From Akkermansia sp. (lineage in GTDB: Bacteria > Verrucomicrobiota > Verrucomicrobiia > Verrucomicrobiales > Akkermansiaceae), in assembly GCA_017555205.1 (NCBI GenBank), contig JAFZGW010000033.1, forward strand, positions 1 to 64,000: a stretch of DNA of 64,000 nt, read 5' to 3'. Shown here in pieces: positions 37,481 to 51,166 of the stretch. Under the pieces are notes generated by a model. That model was not told the origin of the DNA and ran no database searches. It saw nothing but the letters and a program-made list of their open reading frames with translations. Within the stretch, counting starts at the first letter, position 1, and every line of letters starts with the position of its first letter. The position numbers and the translations under genes were made by a program.

Positions 37481-37576
37481 TATAAGGAGTGATAGTTGAT
37501 GACTTTTCTGCCATGCGGAAGGTTCATACCTCGCGTTCCCCAAAGTTTAATACAAACCAGTCCCTACAAGCTTTTT

Positions 37577-39094
37577 ATGAAACGCTCTCTTTTTCTTATA
37601 TTAGTTGCCGCGGGTGCACTACATGCGGAGGACTACACTTTCGTAGCCCGCAGCTCCTCACTGACAGGTGAAGTAAGTGGTTATGACAACGTAACAGCCA
37701 GCGGTATATCCGCCGGTTTTGCCGGCAGCATCGGCACCATCAAGAACAACAACGAGTACAGCATCTCCGGAAACGGTGATGTTACCTTAGAAAATAACCA
37801 AACAACCGGCAAAGGCGGTCTTTTCTACGTGCAAACGAGCACATACACAAACCCGCAGCAGCACACCACGCTCAATATCACCAACAATAAGAACGTCACC
37901 CTCAGCAACAACTATTCCCAGAGCTACGGCGGTGCCATAGCAGCCGACAACAATGGCTCCTATCCGGAGTATTATACTGTTACCAATATCAGCGGCAACA
38001 CCGGCAACGTAAGCTTCACCGGCAATAATACGGATGGCAGCGGTGGCGCTATTAGGTGCGACAGCAAGCTGAACATCAACAACAACGCCAATGTCAAATT
38101 TACCGGCAATGCTGTAAACAAGGCAAACGGAAACTGGGGCGGCGCTATTTATATGGGCGTTTCCAGCGAAAACGCGTTCAATATCAGCGGCAACGATTAT
38201 GTAGAGTTCCGGGGAAATTACCTCTACAAAGCCAAGAGCAACTATGTACCGGAGGCCACAGTACGCCTTAACTCCATTTATCAGAAAGGGACGAACCAAG
38301 CCAACACCATATCCGCCAAGACGGGAGGCAGCGTGGTATTCTACGATGCCGTGATTACCGAGAGCGCCGGTAGCAGAGCCAGCTACGAATTGAACGCCGA
38401 CTACACAGATGCAGCCGGCAACACCCAACAAGCCGGTGGCACTATCACCTTCTCCGGCAAATATACGCAAATCGACCTCGATGCTTTCACCGATACCGTG
38501 AGCAATGCGAAAGAATCACAAACCAGCATCTTGTCCGCAAACACCACACTGCACAACGGCACATTAAATATCGAGTACGATGCCGTATTGCAGACCAAAA
38601 ATCTGACCATCAACGACGATGCAACCCTCACGCTCCGAAATGGCGCATGCGAGGTTCTTACCGGTGGCGACCTTCTTTTCAAAAACGGCAGTGAACTCTC
38701 CGTTACAGGCAGCAACATACTGAGCGCAGACAGCATCACCTTTGAGGATAACACGGTTCTCACTCTGACACTCAGCGACCTCAACACAGAAAGCGCCATC
38801 ATCAACCTTGTGACATCCGACTTGTCCTTCACGCAAGGTACCATTAACTTTGTAGGCGTCGACAGCTTGGATGACGGCCAATACATGCTCCTGTCCTTGG
38901 GTGAGAGCCGACTTACTGCAGCCAACCTGCTTACCGATAATCTGACAGTCAGCGGCTTGGCAGCCGGCGATAAATTAGAGTGGAACGAGACCGGCACAAC
39001 ATTATACCTCAGCCACAAATCCATCCCGGAACCCACAACAGCCACGCTGAGCCTGCTGGCTCTTGCCGGCTTGGCTACTCGCCGCCGCCGCTGA
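37577..39094 (+). CDS. Secreted PEP-CTERM protein with Pmp-like FxxN/GGAI repeats
   Basis: 505 aa. Signal peptide MKRSLFLILVAAGALHA. Residues 69-214 hold five units of V-x-[FL]-x-x-N, four of them followed by GG[AL][IF]: LENN...GGLF (71-83), LSNN...GGAI (109-121), FTGN...GGAI (147-160), FTGN...GGAI (175-191) and FRGN (211-214). This is the organisation of chlamydial polymorphic membrane protein repeats and predicts a right-handed beta helix. The rest is Thr/Asn-rich beta structure. The end is a PEP-CTERM sorting tail (IPEP, a hydrophobic helix, four Arg), so an exosortase-like system, not present here, should process it. No autotransporter barrel. ATG 37499 would add 26 residues and has a better ribosome site; 37577 gives a normal signal peptide. 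Confidence 0.85.
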   Translation: MKRSLFLILVAAGALHAEDYTFVARSSSLTGEVSGYDNVTASGISAGFAGSIGTIKNNNEYSISGNGDVTLENNQTTGKGGLFYVQTSTYTNPQQHTTLNITNNKNVTLSNNYSQSYGGAIAADNNGSYPEYYTVTNISGNTGNVSFTGNNTDGSGGAIRCDSKLNINNNANVKFTGNAVNKANGNWGGAIYMGVSSENAFNISGNDYVEFRGNYLYKAKSNYVPEATVRLNSIYQKGTNQANTISAKTGGSVVFYDAVITESAGSRASYELNADYTDAAGNTQQAGGTITFSGKYTQIDLDAFTDTVSNAKESQTSILSANTTLHNGTLNIEYDAVLQTKNLTINDDATLTLRNGACEVLTGGDLLFKNGSELSVTGSNILSADSITFEDNTVLTLTLSDLNTESAIINLVTSDLSFTQGTINFVGVDSLDDGQYMLLSLGESRLTAANLLTDNLTVSGLAAGDKLEWNETGTTLYLSHKSIPEPTTATLSLLALAGLATRRRR

Positions 39095-43682: not shown

Positions 43683-43712
43683 TTGCCATGGCGGGCTGTT
43701 ATGGCCTATAAT
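43683..43712 (+). promoter_or_regulatory. Promoter of the RND efflux operon
   Basis: TTGCCA (43683-43688), 18 nt, TATAAT (43707-43712). The first operon ATG is at 43719, six bases on, so the message is predicted to be leaderless. CACGTC (43641-43646) and GACGTG (43669-43674) form a loose dyad just upstream. Confidence 0.7.
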
Positions 43713-43718
43713 GGCTAC

Positions 43719-44339
43719 ATGGAATGGAATGACGGATTCATGAGCCTGTTGAGAAATGCCGTAGCACGTTACCACGAGCGCCCACAGAGCACTGCCAGCA
43801 ATTTTTTCCTACCCGATGAGATTCAATTGCTGGCGGACATAGGTTACACACCGGCAGAAATGTTTGCCTATGTACTGGACTACGCCACAGTGGGAGACCC
43901 ATCACCGAGCACCATTTTACTGATAGCCGCTGCGCGCCGCACGTTTTTCCTGACGGCACAGCGAGGAATATCCGGCAATGCAAAACCCGTAAAAGCGGCG
44001 GATTTACCATCACCGGATGACGATTTCCAGGGCATACCATACCTGCCCCGCATTATTCGCAAAGCCGAGGCCAAGCTGCATGGCACGCTTGATACCGGTC
44101 TGATGTACTATGATGAGCAAGACCGCATATTCCTGCGCGAGCACGGCAACATACACCCGGCAGATTTCCTCTACTTAGCATGGACCGCCCACGGCGATAA
44201 GCAAAAGATGGTTAAAGGTGTGCTCAATGCTATGAAAACGGCAACCGATGCGGAAAATGCGGAGCACCGCCCCGCCGGCCACGGCGCCCAGCAAACCGGT
44301 GAGAACATTCCTAGGCAAAGTGAACTTAAACTGGACTAA
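43719..44339 (+). CDS. Soluble protein with DUF5069-like C-terminal region
   Basis: 206 aa, no signal peptide or membrane helix. Residues about 95-165 (IPYLPRIIRKAEAKLHGTL, FLREHGNIHPADFLYLAWTA, KMVKGVLNAM) resemble the DUF5069 family, which is of unknown function. The first 80 residues (FFLPDEIQLLADIGYTPAEMFAYVLDYA) form a helical domain I cannot place. The tail is polar. The start at 43719 is set by the promoter six bases upstream; the longer frame from 43683 begins inside that promoter. First gene of the efflux operon, 11 nt before the next. Confidence 0.7.
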   Translation: MEWNDGFMSLLRNAVARYHERPQSTASNFFLPDEIQLLADIGYTPAEMFAYVLDYATVGDPSPSTILLIAAARRTFFLTAQRGISGNAKPVKAADLPSPDDDFQGIPYLPRIIRKAEAKLHGTLDTGLMYYDEQDRIFLREHGNIHPADFLYLAWTAHGDKQKMVKGVLNAMKTATDAENAEHRPAGHGAQQTGENIPRQSELKLD

Positions 44340-44350
44340 ACCCACTACCC

Positions 44351-44902
44351 ATGTTCAACCCGCCGCACATTGAAATTCCGCACGGCGACGAAGTAACGAC
44401 CGAACCTCAGCGACAGGCTCTTGAGGCCATGTCGCAGGATTTGATCAACAAGCTTTCGGCAATGGTTGCCGAGCAAGAACGCCGGGCTCATGAATTTGCC
44501 CAGCAGCAGCACTCCCTGTCATCGCTGCCCATTCAAATGCTTCCTGAAATATCCGCCCCGGAGTTCCCCGAAGTCCGAGTGCCCGAAATAGAAGCAGCAA
44601 TGCCGCAATTACCACCGTCCCCCCCCGGCAGAACCGGCTCAGCAGGTACAGCAGCTGCCCCCAAAAAGCGGCATGAAAGCCCGCATGGGGCAAGGGTTCC
44701 CCATGGAACCACCGCATGTTCTCCCCCCCTACCCCAATCCGCGAAGCCCAAGAAATACTCATGGGATACCGGTGACTTCAACAAAATGCCAACCGTCATC
44801 CGCGACCCCAAGACCGTCAAAAATGAAGGGTCCATCGGCGCCGGCACCATTTCATTTATCATATTCATCATTTTCGCAATCGTTTTGCACGGTTGCGACT
44901 AA
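44351..44902 (+). CDS. Proline-rich protein with C-terminal membrane anchor, unknown function
   Basis: 183 aa. The N-terminal third is helical and Gln/Glu-rich (EPQRQALEAMSQDLINKLSA, then EQERRAHEFAQQQ). The middle is Pro-rich and probably disordered. The last 20 residues are a hydrophobic anchor ending HGCD, so the protein is likely tail-anchored in the inner membrane facing the cytoplasm. No family recognised. It sits between the DUF5069-like gene (11 nt) and the adaptor gene (21 nt), so it belongs to the efflux operon by position. A role there is only inference. Confidence 0.65.
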   Translation: MFNPPHIEIPHGDEVTTEPQRQALEAMSQDLINKLSAMVAEQERRAHEFAQQQHSLSSLPIQMLPEISAPEFPEVRVPEIEAAMPQLPPSPPGRTGSAGTAAAPKKRHESPHGARVPHGTTACSPPLPQSAKPKKYSWDTGDFNKMPTVIRDPKTVKNEGSIGAGTISFIIFIIFAIVLHGCD

Positions 44903-44923: not shown

Positions 44924-47905
44924 ATGACCGCACACACCCTCATAGCCATTGCGCTCGGCAGCTGCACATTGGGTCTGCTAACCTCATGCGGACAAAAACA
45001 AGAACAACAGGCCGAAACCGCAGAAGTACGGATTAAAACATTCAAAATAAAACAGCAGCAAGTTACCGATTACGCAGAGTGGTTCGGCTATTTGCGAGGA
45101 AAGAATGATACAAACATACACCCCCGCATCAGCGGTTTCCTATTAACACAGGAATACAAAGACGGGGCAAAAGTAAAGAAAGGAGATGTACTGTTCCGCA
45201 TAGATCCCGCATTGGCCAAAGCAGAACTGGCACAGGCGGAGGCAAACCTGCAAGCTGCAGAAGCCGCACTGGCTGCCGCCACGGCAACCCGCGACCAATA
45301 CAAACTCGACGCCGCCCGCTATGAACAGCTTGTGAAAACCAGCGCAGTCTCGGAAAAGCAGGTGAGCGACACCCACCACAACCTGCTCGCAGCAGAGGCG
45401 AATGTGAAGGCATGCCTGGCCGGTATCGAACAAAACAAAGCAGCTGTTACAACAGCAAAAATCAACTTAGATTACACGGTGATACACGCCCCCTACGATG
45501 GTATTGTCGGCACGGCGCTCGCATCGAAAGGCGATTTGGTAACCGCGGCAACCAAACTGGCCAACATTACCTCTACAGATCCTATCCGTGTGGATTTTTC
45601 TATCAACAGCGATAGCATGGTTAACTCATTTCGCCGTTTCGGCAACGTGTTATCGGCCAAGAAAAACCCGGAACTGACTTCACCCGGTTTCGATTTAATA
45701 CTGGAGGACGGCACCGTGTACCCATACAAAGGCACCCTGCTCACGATGGAGAGCAAAGTTGCCGAATCCGGGCTCATAGATGTTGAGGGCGAGGTCGAAA
45801 ACCCCGATTCCCTGCTGCGTGGCGGCATGGCGGTGCGTGTAAAAATACCGATGGGAACCAAGAACGCCATGCTGGTGCCGGCAGCCGCTATTCGCCCGGT
45901 GTTGCGCAACAATTTCATCATCGTAACAGACACAAACGGCGTACCTCACACTATCCCTGTAATAGTCGATGGCAAATACGATATAACCATAACCGAGGAA
46001 GATGGCTATACCTCCACTCAAGAGCTTGTTGCCATCAAAGACTACAATCGCCCCCTGATGGACTATTTCCGCGAGTTCGGTTACGAAAAAGCCGAGGATG
46101 TTCCGGTGGTAGCAGACCCGGACAACGGAGTGCGCGCCATGAACATCTCCTCCGCCAACAGTCGATTGGCGAAAGATGACCCCACCCCCCGAGGTACAAT
46201 CAAAACAGCCCCCTTCTCCTTCCGCCCCACGCTGAGTGCAGCCGAACAAAAAGTAATGGATCGCGCTGCGGGTAAAGAAGAAAAGCAGGAGGAGGCCGCC
46301 CCGGCCAACGATATCAAACAGCTTCCCCCATTCCCGGTACAAGTAATGCCGCTTGTGCAGCAAGATGTGGAGATAAAGGATGAATGGTTCGGCACCCTGC
46401 GAGGAGAGGAGGAAACCGACATTCGCCCCCAAGTAAGCGGGTTCCTGCTCACGCAAAACTTCCGCAACGGCACAATAGTAAAGGAGGGGGACGTGCTCTA
46501 CACCATCGACCCCGCACCGTATAAGGCGGAACTTGCCAAAGCACGCGCCAACCTGCTTGCAGCACAAGCTTCTCTTGAACAGGCTAAGGCCAAGCTGGAC
46601 CAGAGCAAAGCCGACCTCGAACGCTACACAAGGCTGGAGGCAAACAGCCCCGGTGCCGTATCCGCCAAGACGGTGACGGATACCAAAACCGCAGTACAAA
46701 CAAATGAAGCCTCCGTCAACAAGGCCGAAGCTACCATCGCACAGGCACAAGCCGCCGTACAACTGGCAGAAATCAACCTTGGCTACACCACCATCAAGGC
46801 GCCTTTCGATGGCCGAGTCGGCATCAGCAAAATCTCAATCGGAGCATTGGTCTCGCCCAATGACCAACAACCGCTTGTAACCCTTTCCTCAACTAACCCC
46901 ATTCGAGTGGATTTCAGTGTAAGTGGTAAGGGCGCATTGTTAATTATTGAGTCGCTGCAGAAACACAAAATCGACTCGGGAAACCGACCTCAGTTTGACT
47001 TGGTTCTCAAAGATGGTTCCGTTTACCCCGCCAAGGGTGAAATGATGTCGATGGACAACACCCTGAATACCAGCTCCGGTACTTTCGGTATCGTCGGCAG
47101 AGTGGAGAACGTAGACCACGGATTGCGCAGCGGCATGCCGGTGCGAGTACGAGCCACATCGAACAATATGAAGGGGGCCTACCTCGTACCGGCGAGAGCA
47201 CCGCTGAATGCCAACGGCCGTGACCTGCTGTTACTGCTGGGAGCAGACAATGCCCCCACGCCACTGCCCGTCACCAAAGGAGCCATGATAATAGTCCCCA
47301 TTAAGGAGGAAGGAGGCAAAGAAGTTGTACAACCCATGTATGTGGTAGATGTAGATCGAGCCTCCGTCATTCCGCCCATGTTGGCGAAGGCGAATGCGAC
47401 CAGTCTGGATGCCATGATACTCGGCGGAGCCCAGGTTGACAGTTGGGATGCCCTAGTGCTGAAGAATGCACAAGTGGCGGATTTTAAAGCCCTGCTCGAA
47501 AAACGAACCGGCAGTGCCCTGCCCGACGATTTGCCGGAGCAGGAACAGGCCGACGACTGGAAAACCCTTACCCTGCGCCGCGCCGGTGTGAAGAATACCA
47601 AAGAGCTCGTGCTTAAGGATGCCGGTGCACGCGATGAACTGGAGTTCATTGCGCACAGCATGGGGTTCAGCTCCGCTATGCAAATGATTCTCAAGAGCAT
47701 GGGATTTGAGGATATGGCAAATGTACCCGTCATCGTAGAAGGCTCTCTTCTGGTAGCCCAGCAAACAATGGCTGCCAACATGAAAGCCGGTAAACGAATC
47801 CATAAGCTCACACCGACACCATTCCATTACGTCGCACCTCAAACGGTCGTAGATTCCGTAACGGCAGATGCCGACGCTACTGCCCCCCAGTTCAGAAAGC
47901 GCTAA
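44924..47905 (+). CDS. Tandem (double) RND periplasmic adaptor lipoprotein
   Basis: 993 aa, about 2.5 times a normal AcrA. Lipobox LTSC (Cys22) anchors it to the inner membrane. Two complete membrane-fusion modules follow. Copy 1 (about 45-400): WFGYLRG, ISGFLLTQEYKDGAKVKKGD, a coiled coil, then LDYTVIHAPYDGIVG and DPIRVDFS. Copy 2 (about 470-800): WFGTLRG, VSGFLLTQNFRNGTIVKEGD, a coiled coil, then LGYTTIKAPFDGRVG and NPIRVDFS. A linker of about 80 residues, rich in Glu, Lys and Pro, joins them. Copy 2 carries an extra helical stretch (about 820-935). Copies differ widely, so the duplication is old. The inner-membrane pump follows 16 nt on. No frameshift or stop lies between the halves. Confidence 0.93.
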   Translation: MTAHTLIAIALGSCTLGLLTSCGQKQEQQAETAEVRIKTFKIKQQQVTDYAEWFGYLRGKNDTNIHPRISGFLLTQEYKDGAKVKKGDVLFRIDPALAKAELAQAEANLQAAEAALAAATATRDQYKLDAARYEQLVKTSAVSEKQVSDTHHNLLAAEANVKACLAGIEQNKAAVTTAKINLDYTVIHAPYDGIVGTALASKGDLVTAATKLANITSTDPIRVDFSINSDSMVNSFRRFGNVLSAKKNPELTSPGFDLILEDGTVYPYKGTLLTMESKVAESGLIDVEGEVENPDSLLRGGMAVRVKIPMGTKNAMLVPAAAIRPVLRNNFIIVTDTNGVPHTIPVIVDGKYDITITEEDGYTSTQELVAIKDYNRPLMDYFREFGYEKAEDVPVVADPDNGVRAMNISSANSRLAKDDPTPRGTIKTAPFSFRPTLSAAEQKVMDRAAGKEEKQEEAAPANDIKQLPPFPVQVMPLVQQDVEIKDEWFGTLRGEEETDIRPQVSGFLLTQNFRNGTIVKEGDVLYTIDPAPYKAELAKARANLLAAQASLEQAKAKLDQSKADLERYTRLEANSPGAVSAKTVTDTKTAVQTNEASVNKAEATIAQAQAAVQLAEINLGYTTIKAPFDGRVGISKISIGALVSPNDQQPLVTLSSTNPIRVDFSVSGKGALLIIESLQKHKIDSGNRPQFDLVLKDGSVYPAKGEMMSMDNTLNTSSGTFGIVGRVENVDHGLRSGMPVRVRATSNNMKGAYLVPARAPLNANGRDLLLLLGADNAPTPLPVTKGAMIIVPIKEEGGKEVVQPMYVVDVDRASVIPPMLAKANATSLDAMILGGAQVDSWDALVLKNAQVADFKALLEKRTGSALPDDLPEQEQADDWKTLTLRRAGVKNTKELVLKDAGARDELEFIAHSMGFSSAMQMILKSMGFEDMANVPVIVEGSLLVAQQTMAANMKAGKRIHKLTPTPFHYVAPQTVVDSVTADADATAPQFRKR

Positions 47906-47921
47906 AAATCGTTAATTAATT

Positions 47922-50900
47922 ATGTCTCCGTTTTTCATCAAACATCCTATCATAGCAGGTGTCATTTCCATAGTGACCACCATGCTGGGTGTCATCTGCA
48001 TGCTGGCGTTACCAATTTCGCAGTACCCGGATATCACCCCCGTCACCATTCAGCTAAGTGCGACCTACCCCGGTGCAAATGCCCAGGAAGTAGCAGATGC
48101 CGTGGCCACCCCCATTGAGCTGCAACTCTCGGGTATCCAAAAGATGGACTACATGAGCTCCACCTCGTCCAACAACGGTGCATGCTCGCTCAGTGTTATC
48201 TTCGAACCCGGTACGGACGCAAACACAAACCAGCAGCTCACCTACATGCGCTACAGTCAGGCAACCTCGCAGCTGCCCAGCACAGTATCACAAATGGGTG
48301 TTACCATCAAGCAGTCCGCCGGTCTGCCGCTCATGCTGTACGCCATCGACTCACCCGAGGGCTTCTTCAACCCCATCGACCTGACCGGATATGCCTACAT
48401 AAACTTGGTGGATCCGATTAAGCGAGTAAAAGGCGTGGGCGATGTAATGGTGTTCGGTGGTCGCTACGCCGTGCGTATATGGCTCGATAGCGAAAGCATG
48501 GCCCAGAAGGGAGTAACCGTAGACCAAGTATACAACGCTGTTTACCAGCAAAACAACATTAACCCCGGCGGTTCTGTAGGCGCTGAACCGATGCCCGACG
48601 GGCAAGAATTCACCTTCACCATCCGCAATAAAGGCCGAGTGGAAAGCATTGAGGAATTCGGGGATATCATCATCCTTCAAAATCGCACCCAAGCTGTAAG
48701 GCTCAAAGATATCGCCAAGATAGAGCTCGGCTCGCAATCATACTCTCTGGCCGGTCGAGTAAACGGCCAGCCGGCTACCTGCTTAGCCATTTACCAAGCA
48801 GCAGATGCGAATGCTCTCGAAACAGTTGAGCAACTTCGCGAACTCTTTGCCGAAAAGGAGAAAGTCATGCCGGAAGGTATGCGAGGCTTTGTGGCTCTCG
48901 ACACCACAACCAGTGTGAGCGACTCCATCAACGAAATCATCCATACTCTTTTCGAAGCACTGGTACTGGTTGCTCTGGTGGTATTCCTGTTCCTGCAAGG
49001 CTGGCGTGCGACCCTTATCCCGCTGATTGCGGTACCGGTATCGTTGGTGACCACCTTCTGCTTCTTCCCCATACTGGGATTCTCGCTCAACACCATCTGC
49101 CTGCTCGGCATGGTGCTGGCCATCGGTCTGGTGGTGGATGATGCCATCGTGGTAGTTGAGGCTGTAGAAACACACATGGAGAACGGCATGACCCCGCGCC
49201 AGGCCACATTCGCCGCTATGAAGGAGGTGAGTGGCCCGGTAGTTGCCATTGCTCTGGTACTGGCTGCGGTATTCCTGCCCTCGGTGCTGTTGCCGGGTAT
49301 CACGGGTACCCTATTCCAGCAGTTTGCCGTAACGATTGCGGTGTCGATGCTTATCTCGGCATTCAACGCGCTCACACTCTCCCCGGCACTCTCCGCAATC
49401 ATGCTCAAAAACAAGAAAGAGCACAAGTCCCTGCTCACCCCCTTCTACAACGTCTTCAATAGGGGTTACGACTGGATTGCCGAAAGATTTGCCGCAATCT
49501 GTGGCTTCCTCTGCCGCAAACTTTGGATTTCCATGCCGCTGCTGGCCGGGCTTGCCCTGCTCATTATTCCCACCTCCGCACGAGTCCCCGGCGGTTTCCT
49601 TCCCTCGGAAGACCAAGGATTCCTCATTGCCGGTGTTATCATGAAACCCGGTGCATCCCTGCAGCGCCTGACGGAAGAGACGGTACCGGTCGAGCAAACC
49701 CTCATGAGTGACAGTTCTGTTGAGCACGTTGTATCTATCATAGGTATGAACCTCATGATTAACGTGCAGACTACCAATGCCATGACCTACTTCGTGAAGC
49801 TCAAGGACTACGCTGAGCGCCCCTTGGAGAACGGCATACGCCCCACGGCGGAAGACATATACAAGCGACTCAATGGCAAGTTGATTATGTGCGGGACCGA
49901 CGGTATCGTATTCGCCGCTATGCCGCCCGCCATTCCCGGTGTGGGTACAGGTAACGACATCGCAATGGTTCTGGAAGACCGCGAAGGCCAAGGTGTGGCC
50001 GTTCTCTACGAGCAGATGAAGCGACTCGAAGCCGCCCTTGAGGCACACGAGGCCATTGAAAAAGCCTCCGATATGATGTTGCCGGCAGTACCGCAAAAGA
50101 GTATTGCCATCGACAAGGACAAGTGCTTGGCGCAGGGGGTGGATTACGCCGGCGCAAATAGCCTGCTGCAATGCTTCAACGGCTCGCGCTTTGTGAACTA
50201 CTATACTCAGTTCGGCCAACAGTGGCAAGTATACATGCAGGCGGCAGGTGTAAACCGCACCGATACGGACAAAATCGCAAACTTCTACGTCAGCAACAAC
50301 AAGGGCGAATCAGTCCCGCTCAGCACACTTGTCACCATAAAAGACATCGCTGACACGGAGTATGTGCAGCACACCAATAACTACAACTCAGGCAAAATCA
50401 ACATTGCACCGGCGGCCGGTTACTCCTCTGCACAAGCAATGGCAGCCATTGATGAGGTGTTCAACGCTGTGATGGATAAAACCAAGTTCGGCTACTCCTA
50501 CATTGACATGAGTTTCCAAGAGAAGAAGGTGCAGGATGGTCTCGGCCTCGGTGCCATCTTCACCCTCTCAGGTGTATTCGCCTTCCTCATCATGGCTGCA
50601 CTTTACGAGAAATGGACACTGCCGCTGGCGATTTTCCTTTCCGTTCCGATTGCTGTGCTGGGGGCATTCTTCGGCCTGTGGATATATGGCATGACCTTGG
50701 ATCTCTACGCTCAGATTGGTCTGGTGATGTTGGTAGGTCTGGCCGCCAAAAATGCCATTCTGATAGTAGAGTTTGCCGTGCTGCAGATGGAGCGTGGTCT
50801 AAGCCTGATGGACGCTGCTGTAACCGCTGCGCGCATGCGTCTGCGCCCCATTCTGATGACCTCGTTCGCCTTTATTCTGGGTTGTGTACCGCTGCTCACG

Positions 50901-51110
50901 GCGGAGGGTTCCGGTGCTCTTGCACGTAATGCCATCGGTGTGGTGGTTGTTATCGGCATGAGCGTTGCAACCGTTGTGGGTGTATTCTTCATCCCCTGCT
51001 CCTTTGTGTTCATCATGAAACTTTTCCGCTCCAAAGTAGAAAAGGCTCACCACGGTGCTGACCCGGACGAAGAATTGGCCTACGCTAAACTAGCCGAGAG
51101 CGAAGAGTAA
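47922..51110 (+). CDS. RND multidrug efflux pump, inner-membrane subunit (HAE1/AcrB type)
   Basis: 1062 aa proton-driven exporter, full AcrB-like length with twelve membrane helices and two large periplasmic loops. The N-terminus [14 protein letters not shown] and the [21 protein letters not shown] segment are classic. TM4 carries the proton-relay pair D406-D407 ([13 protein letters not shown], equal to AcrB 407/408) and TM10 has the matching Lys in [15 protein letters not shown]. It follows the double adaptor by 16 nt. No TolC-type outer-membrane channel lies nearby, so one must be supplied from elsewhere. The substrate range is not predictable beyond the hydrophobic/amphiphilic-efflux group. 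Confidence 0.96.
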
Positions 51111-51130
51111 ATTGTGCCAAAATAATTTAG

Positions 51131-51166
51131 CCCCGCAGGAGACCGCGTTTTCCTGCGGGGCTTTTT
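51131..51166 (+). terminator. Terminator of the RND operon
   Basis: A 10-bp stem (CCCCGCAGGA 51131-51140, TCCTGCGGGG 51151-51160) with C and five T following. Confidence 0.93.

Follow-up and report, generated by a model that had tools for sequence, protein, structure and literature searches.

A stretch of 64,000 nucleotides from an Akkermansia genome (contig JAFZGW010000033.1, positions 1 to 64,000; hereafter the window) carries, at 44924..47905 on the plus strand, a gene for a tandem periplasmic adaptor of the resistance-nodulation-division (RND) type, 993 aa long in a single uninterrupted frame. One chain comprises two diverged RND adaptors, and three such chains likely form a six-module ring on the trimeric pump, with each half in a fixed position. 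The observations behind this reading are the two modules, the single lipobox, the purifying selection, the drifting linker, the adjacent pump gene and the kinship with single adaptors.

Two adaptor modules in one chain

An earlier, sequence-only reading of this DNA had claimed two full adaptor modules in the 993-residue frame, and the claim held when each half was scanned alone. Half 1 (residues 1-462) scored 186.1 bits and half 2 (residues 463-993) 181.2 bits on TIGR01730 (RND_mfp), for which the cut-off is 94.9. The lipoyl, hairpin, barrel and membrane-proximal parts of half 1 lie at 45029..46213 (+; residues 36-430), and the second full module, together with an array discussed below, lies at 46331..47902 (+; residues 470-993). 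The halves had also been described as diverged, and half-to-half alignment by BLASTP gave 41% identity over 346 columns (E 7e-67). With two modules where RND_mfp proteins have one per chain, the tandem counts as a variant within the family rather than a typical member. The earlier reading would have been refuted by a structure prediction in which one half could not form the fold; in the models obtained, both halves have a predicted adaptor fold. The predicted models of the whole chain and of half 2 show the lipoyl, alpha-hairpin, beta-barrel and membrane-proximal domains, the hairpins are predicted at residues 96-183 (half 1) and 531-620 (half 2), and the top structural matches of the models are AcrA, MexA and MacA.

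The sole lipobox of the chain, LTSC, was read from the sequence at 44978..44989 (+; residues 19-22); no signal peptide or lipobox is visible at the start of half 2. The lipobox cysteine, C22, is invariant in 58/58 aligned sequences, i.e., the window and 57 homologues, and in 43/43 aligned locus sequences. The single lipid anchor of the earlier reading is supported. The 58 rows make up alignment A1, for which 57 of 120 listed homologues were taken; alignment A2 took 48 of them.

The window comes from a draft genome of 70 contigs, which is the point in favor of an artefact, whether an assembly join or a frameshift, that unites two adjacent genes for single adaptors. Homology searching gave 212 proteins at E <= 0.001, and the 120 listed are 971-1023 aa long and cover 96-100% of the query, across both modules. 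Among 260 genomes of the family, 53 matched the tandem at E <= 1e-130, all of them in the window's genus (1 of 16 genera). Because these homologues and family genomes share the two-module architecture, the tandem is neither a chance product nor an assembly join; an artefact of two adjacent adaptor genes was ruled out on these counts and has next to no probability. The view that the fusion is old and kept is supported, and the genome search for further tandems with an RND neighbour, suggested earlier, found none outside a single genus among the genomes covered. Of the 197 genera in a sample of 387 genomes from the phylum, the window's genus alone matched the tandem at E <= 1e-100, with 14 genomes, of which nine have the tandem, four have single adaptors only and one has a contig-end piece. 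The named relatives of the tandem are Akkermansia, locus L008 being 70% identical. A search of genome contigs gave four loci, namely the L008 tandem and three single adaptors. Two of the 53 genomes did not give one clean full match: the copy in G082 is cut by a contig end, and that in G056 matched as two pieces of one 910-aa frame. The stops in G009 and G019 fall beyond the gene end, and the full frames are 974 and 996 aa, respectively.

The halves differ at the hairpin tip, which is the TolC-docking end of an adaptor. Tip length was measured as the spacing from a conserved arginine to a conserved lysine. The half 1 tip, R132 to K145 at 45317..45358 (+), is spaced like those of single adaptors, and the half 2 tip, R567 to K582 at 46622..46669 (+), is usually two residues longer than that of half 1. 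Over the 58 rows the spacing was 13 for half 1 in 55 and 15 for half 2 in 56; the half 2 tip was longer in 57 rows, by exactly two residues in 55. It was also longer in 40 of the 43 locus sequences, among which L008 and L050 are probably one organism; the exceptions were L049, L013 and L029. Seventeen of the 18 single relatives shown have the short tip of half 1, and the other is shorter by a further residue; the AcrA tip is likewise short.

A further difference is a series of short helices whose sequence repeats every 13 residues, an array found in half 2 only, at 47354..47728 (+; residues 811-935). The periodicity had a z value of 10.4, and none of 300 column shuffles was as high (45 rows). 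The array is 101-125 residues long in 41 of the 43 locus sequences and 16-23 in the other two, and at the presumed matching place half 1 has 20-21 residues (58 rows). No Pfam family scored above cut-off in residues 811-935, a segment never folded or searched alone. Among columns at least 90% conserved in both halves of 20 tandems, 74 in all, 67 have the same residue in both and seven are fixed differently. With 67 of 74 jointly conserved columns identical, the divergence of the halves is local.

The halves are joined by a linker of variable sequence at 46214..46330 (+; residues 431-469). Its length stays at 28-39 residues across the 58 rows while its sequence varies, and the predicted local distance difference test (pLDDT) score is below 50 at residues 440-463. 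In comparisons of nonsynonymous and synonymous substitution rates (dN/dS), for which the region borders were placed by eye in the three pairs that do not include the window, both halves were under similar purifying selection, and the linker, of about 35 residues, was weakly constrained and drifting.

Origins of two tandem families

The genome holds a second tandem adaptor, tandem 2, the tandem of the window being tandem 1. Tandem 2 is 727 aa long (G000:C28:192197-194377; L004, L107, L123), scores 430.9 bits on RND_mfp in two stretches, and adjoins its own RND pump, which is 34-39% identical to the tandem 1 pump. It was matched in 58 of the 260 family genomes at E <= 1e-200, in one genus of 16, the match in G064 running from residue 136 only, and in 10/387 genomes and 1/197 genera of the phylum sample at E <= 1e-90. 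No lipobox was seen by eye in 18 tandem 2 N-termini, and the tip spacing is ordinary in both halves. Seventeen genomes of the genus carry instead a single adaptor matching the first half of tandem 2, and in nine such loci, from eight genomes, the adaptor lies 7-64 nt from a pump.

An adaptor tree of 83 rows included 20 tandem 1 loci out of a larger set. In it all 20 copies of half 1 group together, as do all 20 of half 2, each clade with support of 100/100, and the two clades unite with 17 single adaptors from the genus at 99/95. This pattern is explained by one duplication or fusion before the tandem spread. The halves may be sisters, or one of them a paralogue that was fused in. A constraint holding half 1 and half 2 as sisters was not rejected by the approximately unbiased test (p-AU 0.34), and the best tree pairs half 2 with single adaptors at 92/68; for this test seven of the 83 rows, with long branches, were dropped, and a third grouping was unfinished. 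A pump tree comprised 17 rows for tandem 1, of which two are identical, and 12 for tandem 2, of which two come from one genome; L077, L079 and L122 had no usable pump and were left out. The 17 tandem 1 pump rows form a clade (100/99) nested in 17 pumps with a single adaptor gene directly upstream. No further adaptor gene was found upstream of the single one in the longer loci L124, L125, L130 and L131, the sole loci checked.

For tandem 2, a tree of 18 loci placed the halves in two clades of 18 rows each (100/100), which group with nine single relatives at 100/99. In the 83-row tree the tandem 2 halves fall away from the tandem 1 halves, subject to a long-branch warning, and in the pump tree the 12 tandem 2 rows form a clade (99/96) within single-adaptor pumps. 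Long-branch warnings attach to the adaptor, pump and tandem 2 trees alike; the clades quoted are independent of those joins, on which the position of tandem 2 with respect to distant single adaptors does depend. Since each tandem family nests among single-adaptor relatives of the genus, conversion from single to tandem adaptor apparently happened twice in the genus.

Among the 76 genus genomes showing any of these systems, 52 have both tandems, six have tandem 2 only, one has tandem 1 only and 17 have neither. The co-occurrence test treats relatives as independent and is not taken as proof; shared ancestry may explain this pattern. In two of the six tandem-2-only genomes, G012 and G086, fragments of a tandem 1 system lie at contig ends. 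The tandem 2 copy of G063 (L116) is broken by a stop codon into frames of 422 and 288 aa; stops within the match were also recorded in other genomes, among them G007, G023, G054 and G021, where the frames are nonetheless full. Frames of about 1850 aa in G007, G023 and G054, considered as adaptor-pump fusions, were rejected, the tandem (726-727 aa) and the pump (1107 aa) being in fact separate frames. A candidate tandem at L010 (726-aa frame) was rejected by eye, its N-terminal part looking like an over-long open frame and not like an adaptor. One tandem 2 relative, P0223 (789 aa), has an insert of about 85 residues in its second half that looks RND-pump-like by eye (PF00873 is listed) and could be an artefact.

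The proposed ring, its alternatives and neighbouring genes

The partner gene, at 47922..51110 (+), encodes an RND (HAE1-type) pump of 1062 aa, with 927.9 bits on PF00873 and a TIGR00915 score above cut-off. In keeping with the RND neighbour named in the sequence-only reading, it is the next gene, 16 nt past the tandem stop, and a pump lies directly downstream in 41 of the 42 tabulated tandem loci, with gaps of 6-57 nt. The remaining locus, L022, ends early yet shows the start of the pump.

Electron cryomicroscopy of AcrAB-TolC showed six AcrA protomers arranged as a trimer of two distinct protomers (PMC5404916), which agrees with the non-equivalent adaptor pairs invoked earlier for the tandem. 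Each RND protomer presents a semi-equivalent pair of sites, and TriABC fills both with two dedicated adaptors (PMC6975555). A tandem of diverged modules fits this two-site asymmetry, because three chains would supply six modules in fixed order. Half 1, with its lipid anchor and ordinary tip, would occupy one member of the non-equivalent pair of sites that every pump protomer offers, together with one TolC-type groove. The other position would go to half 2, whose tip is longer and whose helical array lies near the membrane-proximal domain, and the flexible linker would merely tether neighbours. Fusion would secure a 1:1 mix and the half 1-half 2 order round the ring, and the pump would be made complete by an outer-membrane channel whose gene lies elsewhere.

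Several points weigh against this arrangement. We infer the 3:3 stoichiometry, and the full-length predicted model, with a predicted template modelling score (pTM) of just 0.62, does not fix the mutual packing of the tandem halves. The tip-length rule is broken in 1/58 aligned and 3/43 locus sequences. The array, near-absent in two of the 43 locus sequences, is evidently not required for the tandem state. Away from tip and array, specialisation of the halves seems modest, with 7 of 74 columns differing, and by the trees half 1 and half 2 may or may not be sisters.

Three other arrangements were weighed. The chain might be cut in the linker after export, yielding two separate adaptors in equal amounts, like TriA and TriB. 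In favor of this, TriABC shows that one RND pump can work with a pair of separate adaptors (PMC4338810), and the linker is variable, weakly constrained and of low confidence in the model; however, a cut half 2 would lose the lipid anchor, and the linker has kept its length despite sequence change, as a tether would. Such cleavage is judged unlikely. Slightly less probable again is a ring of six tandem chains round the pump, with one half of each docked and the other free or bridging neighbouring pumps. The many invariant residues in both halves and their similarly strong purifying selection argue against an idle half, and there would scarcely be room around one pump for six extra modules, although the inferred stoichiometry and the low pTM do leave room for this placement of the halves. 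The tandem might also share rings with a single lipoprotein adaptor, that of a paralogous system elsewhere in the genome (G000:C27). No other single adaptor of this genome is as closely related to the tandem, and the N-terminal parts of the two pumps are 59% identical; but three tandems alone would fill a six-module ring, a separate pump gene adjoins either adaptor, and mixed rings are accordingly given little credence. The ring of three tandem chains is the arrangement that we prefer.

Carried over to both tandem families, the three-chain ring leads to a broader and more tentative proposal, that natural selection in the genus may on two occasions have replaced a homohexameric ring of RND adaptors by a covalent 3 x 2 ring in which each position is fixed and specialised. 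If the change took place twice in parallel within a single genus, this would point to a genuine advantage of covalent pairing. The 3:6:3 design of RND systems makes one adaptor fit two different pump sites and two different TolC grooves; in a covalent pair, order and stoichiometry would follow from the chain itself. Where the halves have diverged naturally, the sequence tells the two positions apart, making approachable the question of which residues serve which site, a question hidden by identical AcrA copies. The single-adaptor relatives in the same genome and genus are controls. If the proposal is true, the genus would be a natural experiment on the use of six identical adaptors over a three-fold pump, with related pumps of the single-adaptor and the tandem-adaptor kind present in one cell.

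Downstream of the pump gene, a consensus scan found a terminator-like hairpin of 14 pairs followed by a T run (51129..51162, +), which likely marks the end of the operon. Because this hairpin follows the pump gene and the next gene sits on the opposite strand, the tandem unit has no channel gene. Across the genome, four frames encode RND pumps and three score above cut-off as channel-type (OEP) proteins, a fourth being counted with its neighbours. One OEP frame adjoins the single-adaptor system at C27 and none adjoins either tandem (the assembly is 84% complete), so the tandem pump likely shares an outer-membrane channel encoded elsewhere in the genome. Upstream of the tandem, a gene at 43683..44339 (+) has a tblastn relative in 36 of the 42 tabulated tandem loci, and its product scores 15.7 bits on DUF5069, below the cut-off of 27. 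A second small upstream gene, at 44351-44902, ends in a membrane-type stretch and has relatives in many tandem loci. Elsewhere in the window, 37496-39094 encodes a repeat-rich surface-type protein with a PEP-CTERM-like tail, as read by eye.

Comparison with known systems

Several points go beyond the sequence-only reading: tandem 2, the tip extension and helical array seen in half 2, the confinement to a single genus among the genomes searched, and the earlier cases of fused or paired adaptors. TriA and TriB, which are 36% identical, both serve one RND pump (PMC4338810). The TriABC-OpmH system of Pseudomonas aeruginosa thus resembles the tandem in having two diverged adaptors for one RND pump, the tandem halves being 41% identical, and differs in that TriA and TriB are encoded by separate genes and the tandem by one frame. 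That the two halves are under similar purifying selection is consistent with transport needing both. The Protein Data Bank chain 6vej_P (695 aa), whose molecule name lists more than one item, gave a weak sequence match to the tandem (3.7e-11); it is probably an engineered TriA-TriB fusion.

In DSY0927 of Desulfitobacterium hafniense two different membrane fusion proteins are naturally joined, and its describers held that the fusion supports a functional dimer (PMC4338810, PMC4446572). Its N-terminal half, according to PMC4338810, is without a coiled-coil domain. Like tandem 1, DSY0927 has two adaptor parts in one natural chain; unlike tandem 1, which pairs with an RND pump and has full hairpins predicted in both halves, it belongs to an ABC-type (ATP-binding cassette) transporter of a Gram-positive organism. 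Engineered tandem fusions of AcrA are reported to complement the loss of AcrA (PMC4446572, PMC13328181). These fusions likewise have two RND adaptors per chain, and they are lab-made, in contrast to the natural, diverged halves found here. The engineered copies are reportedly identical.

In Akkermansia muciniphila exposed to ox-bile, an RND adaptor and pump are raised (PMC7671984); the gene concerned was not matched to any described here. A literature search, with most subscription papers beyond its reach, found no description of a natural RND tandem in Akkermansia. Fused and paired adaptors were already known as an idea, and what is new, in that no report of it was found, is that RND tandems with two full hairpins occur naturally and evolved, by the trees, apparently twice in one Gram-negative genus. 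In sum, tandem 2 of the same genome is like tandem 1 in having two RND_mfp modules beside an RND pump and in being found in the same genus only among the genomes searched, and it differs in its length of about 720 aa, in having no lipobox seen, in the ordinary spacing of its tips and, as the trees suggest, in its separate origin.
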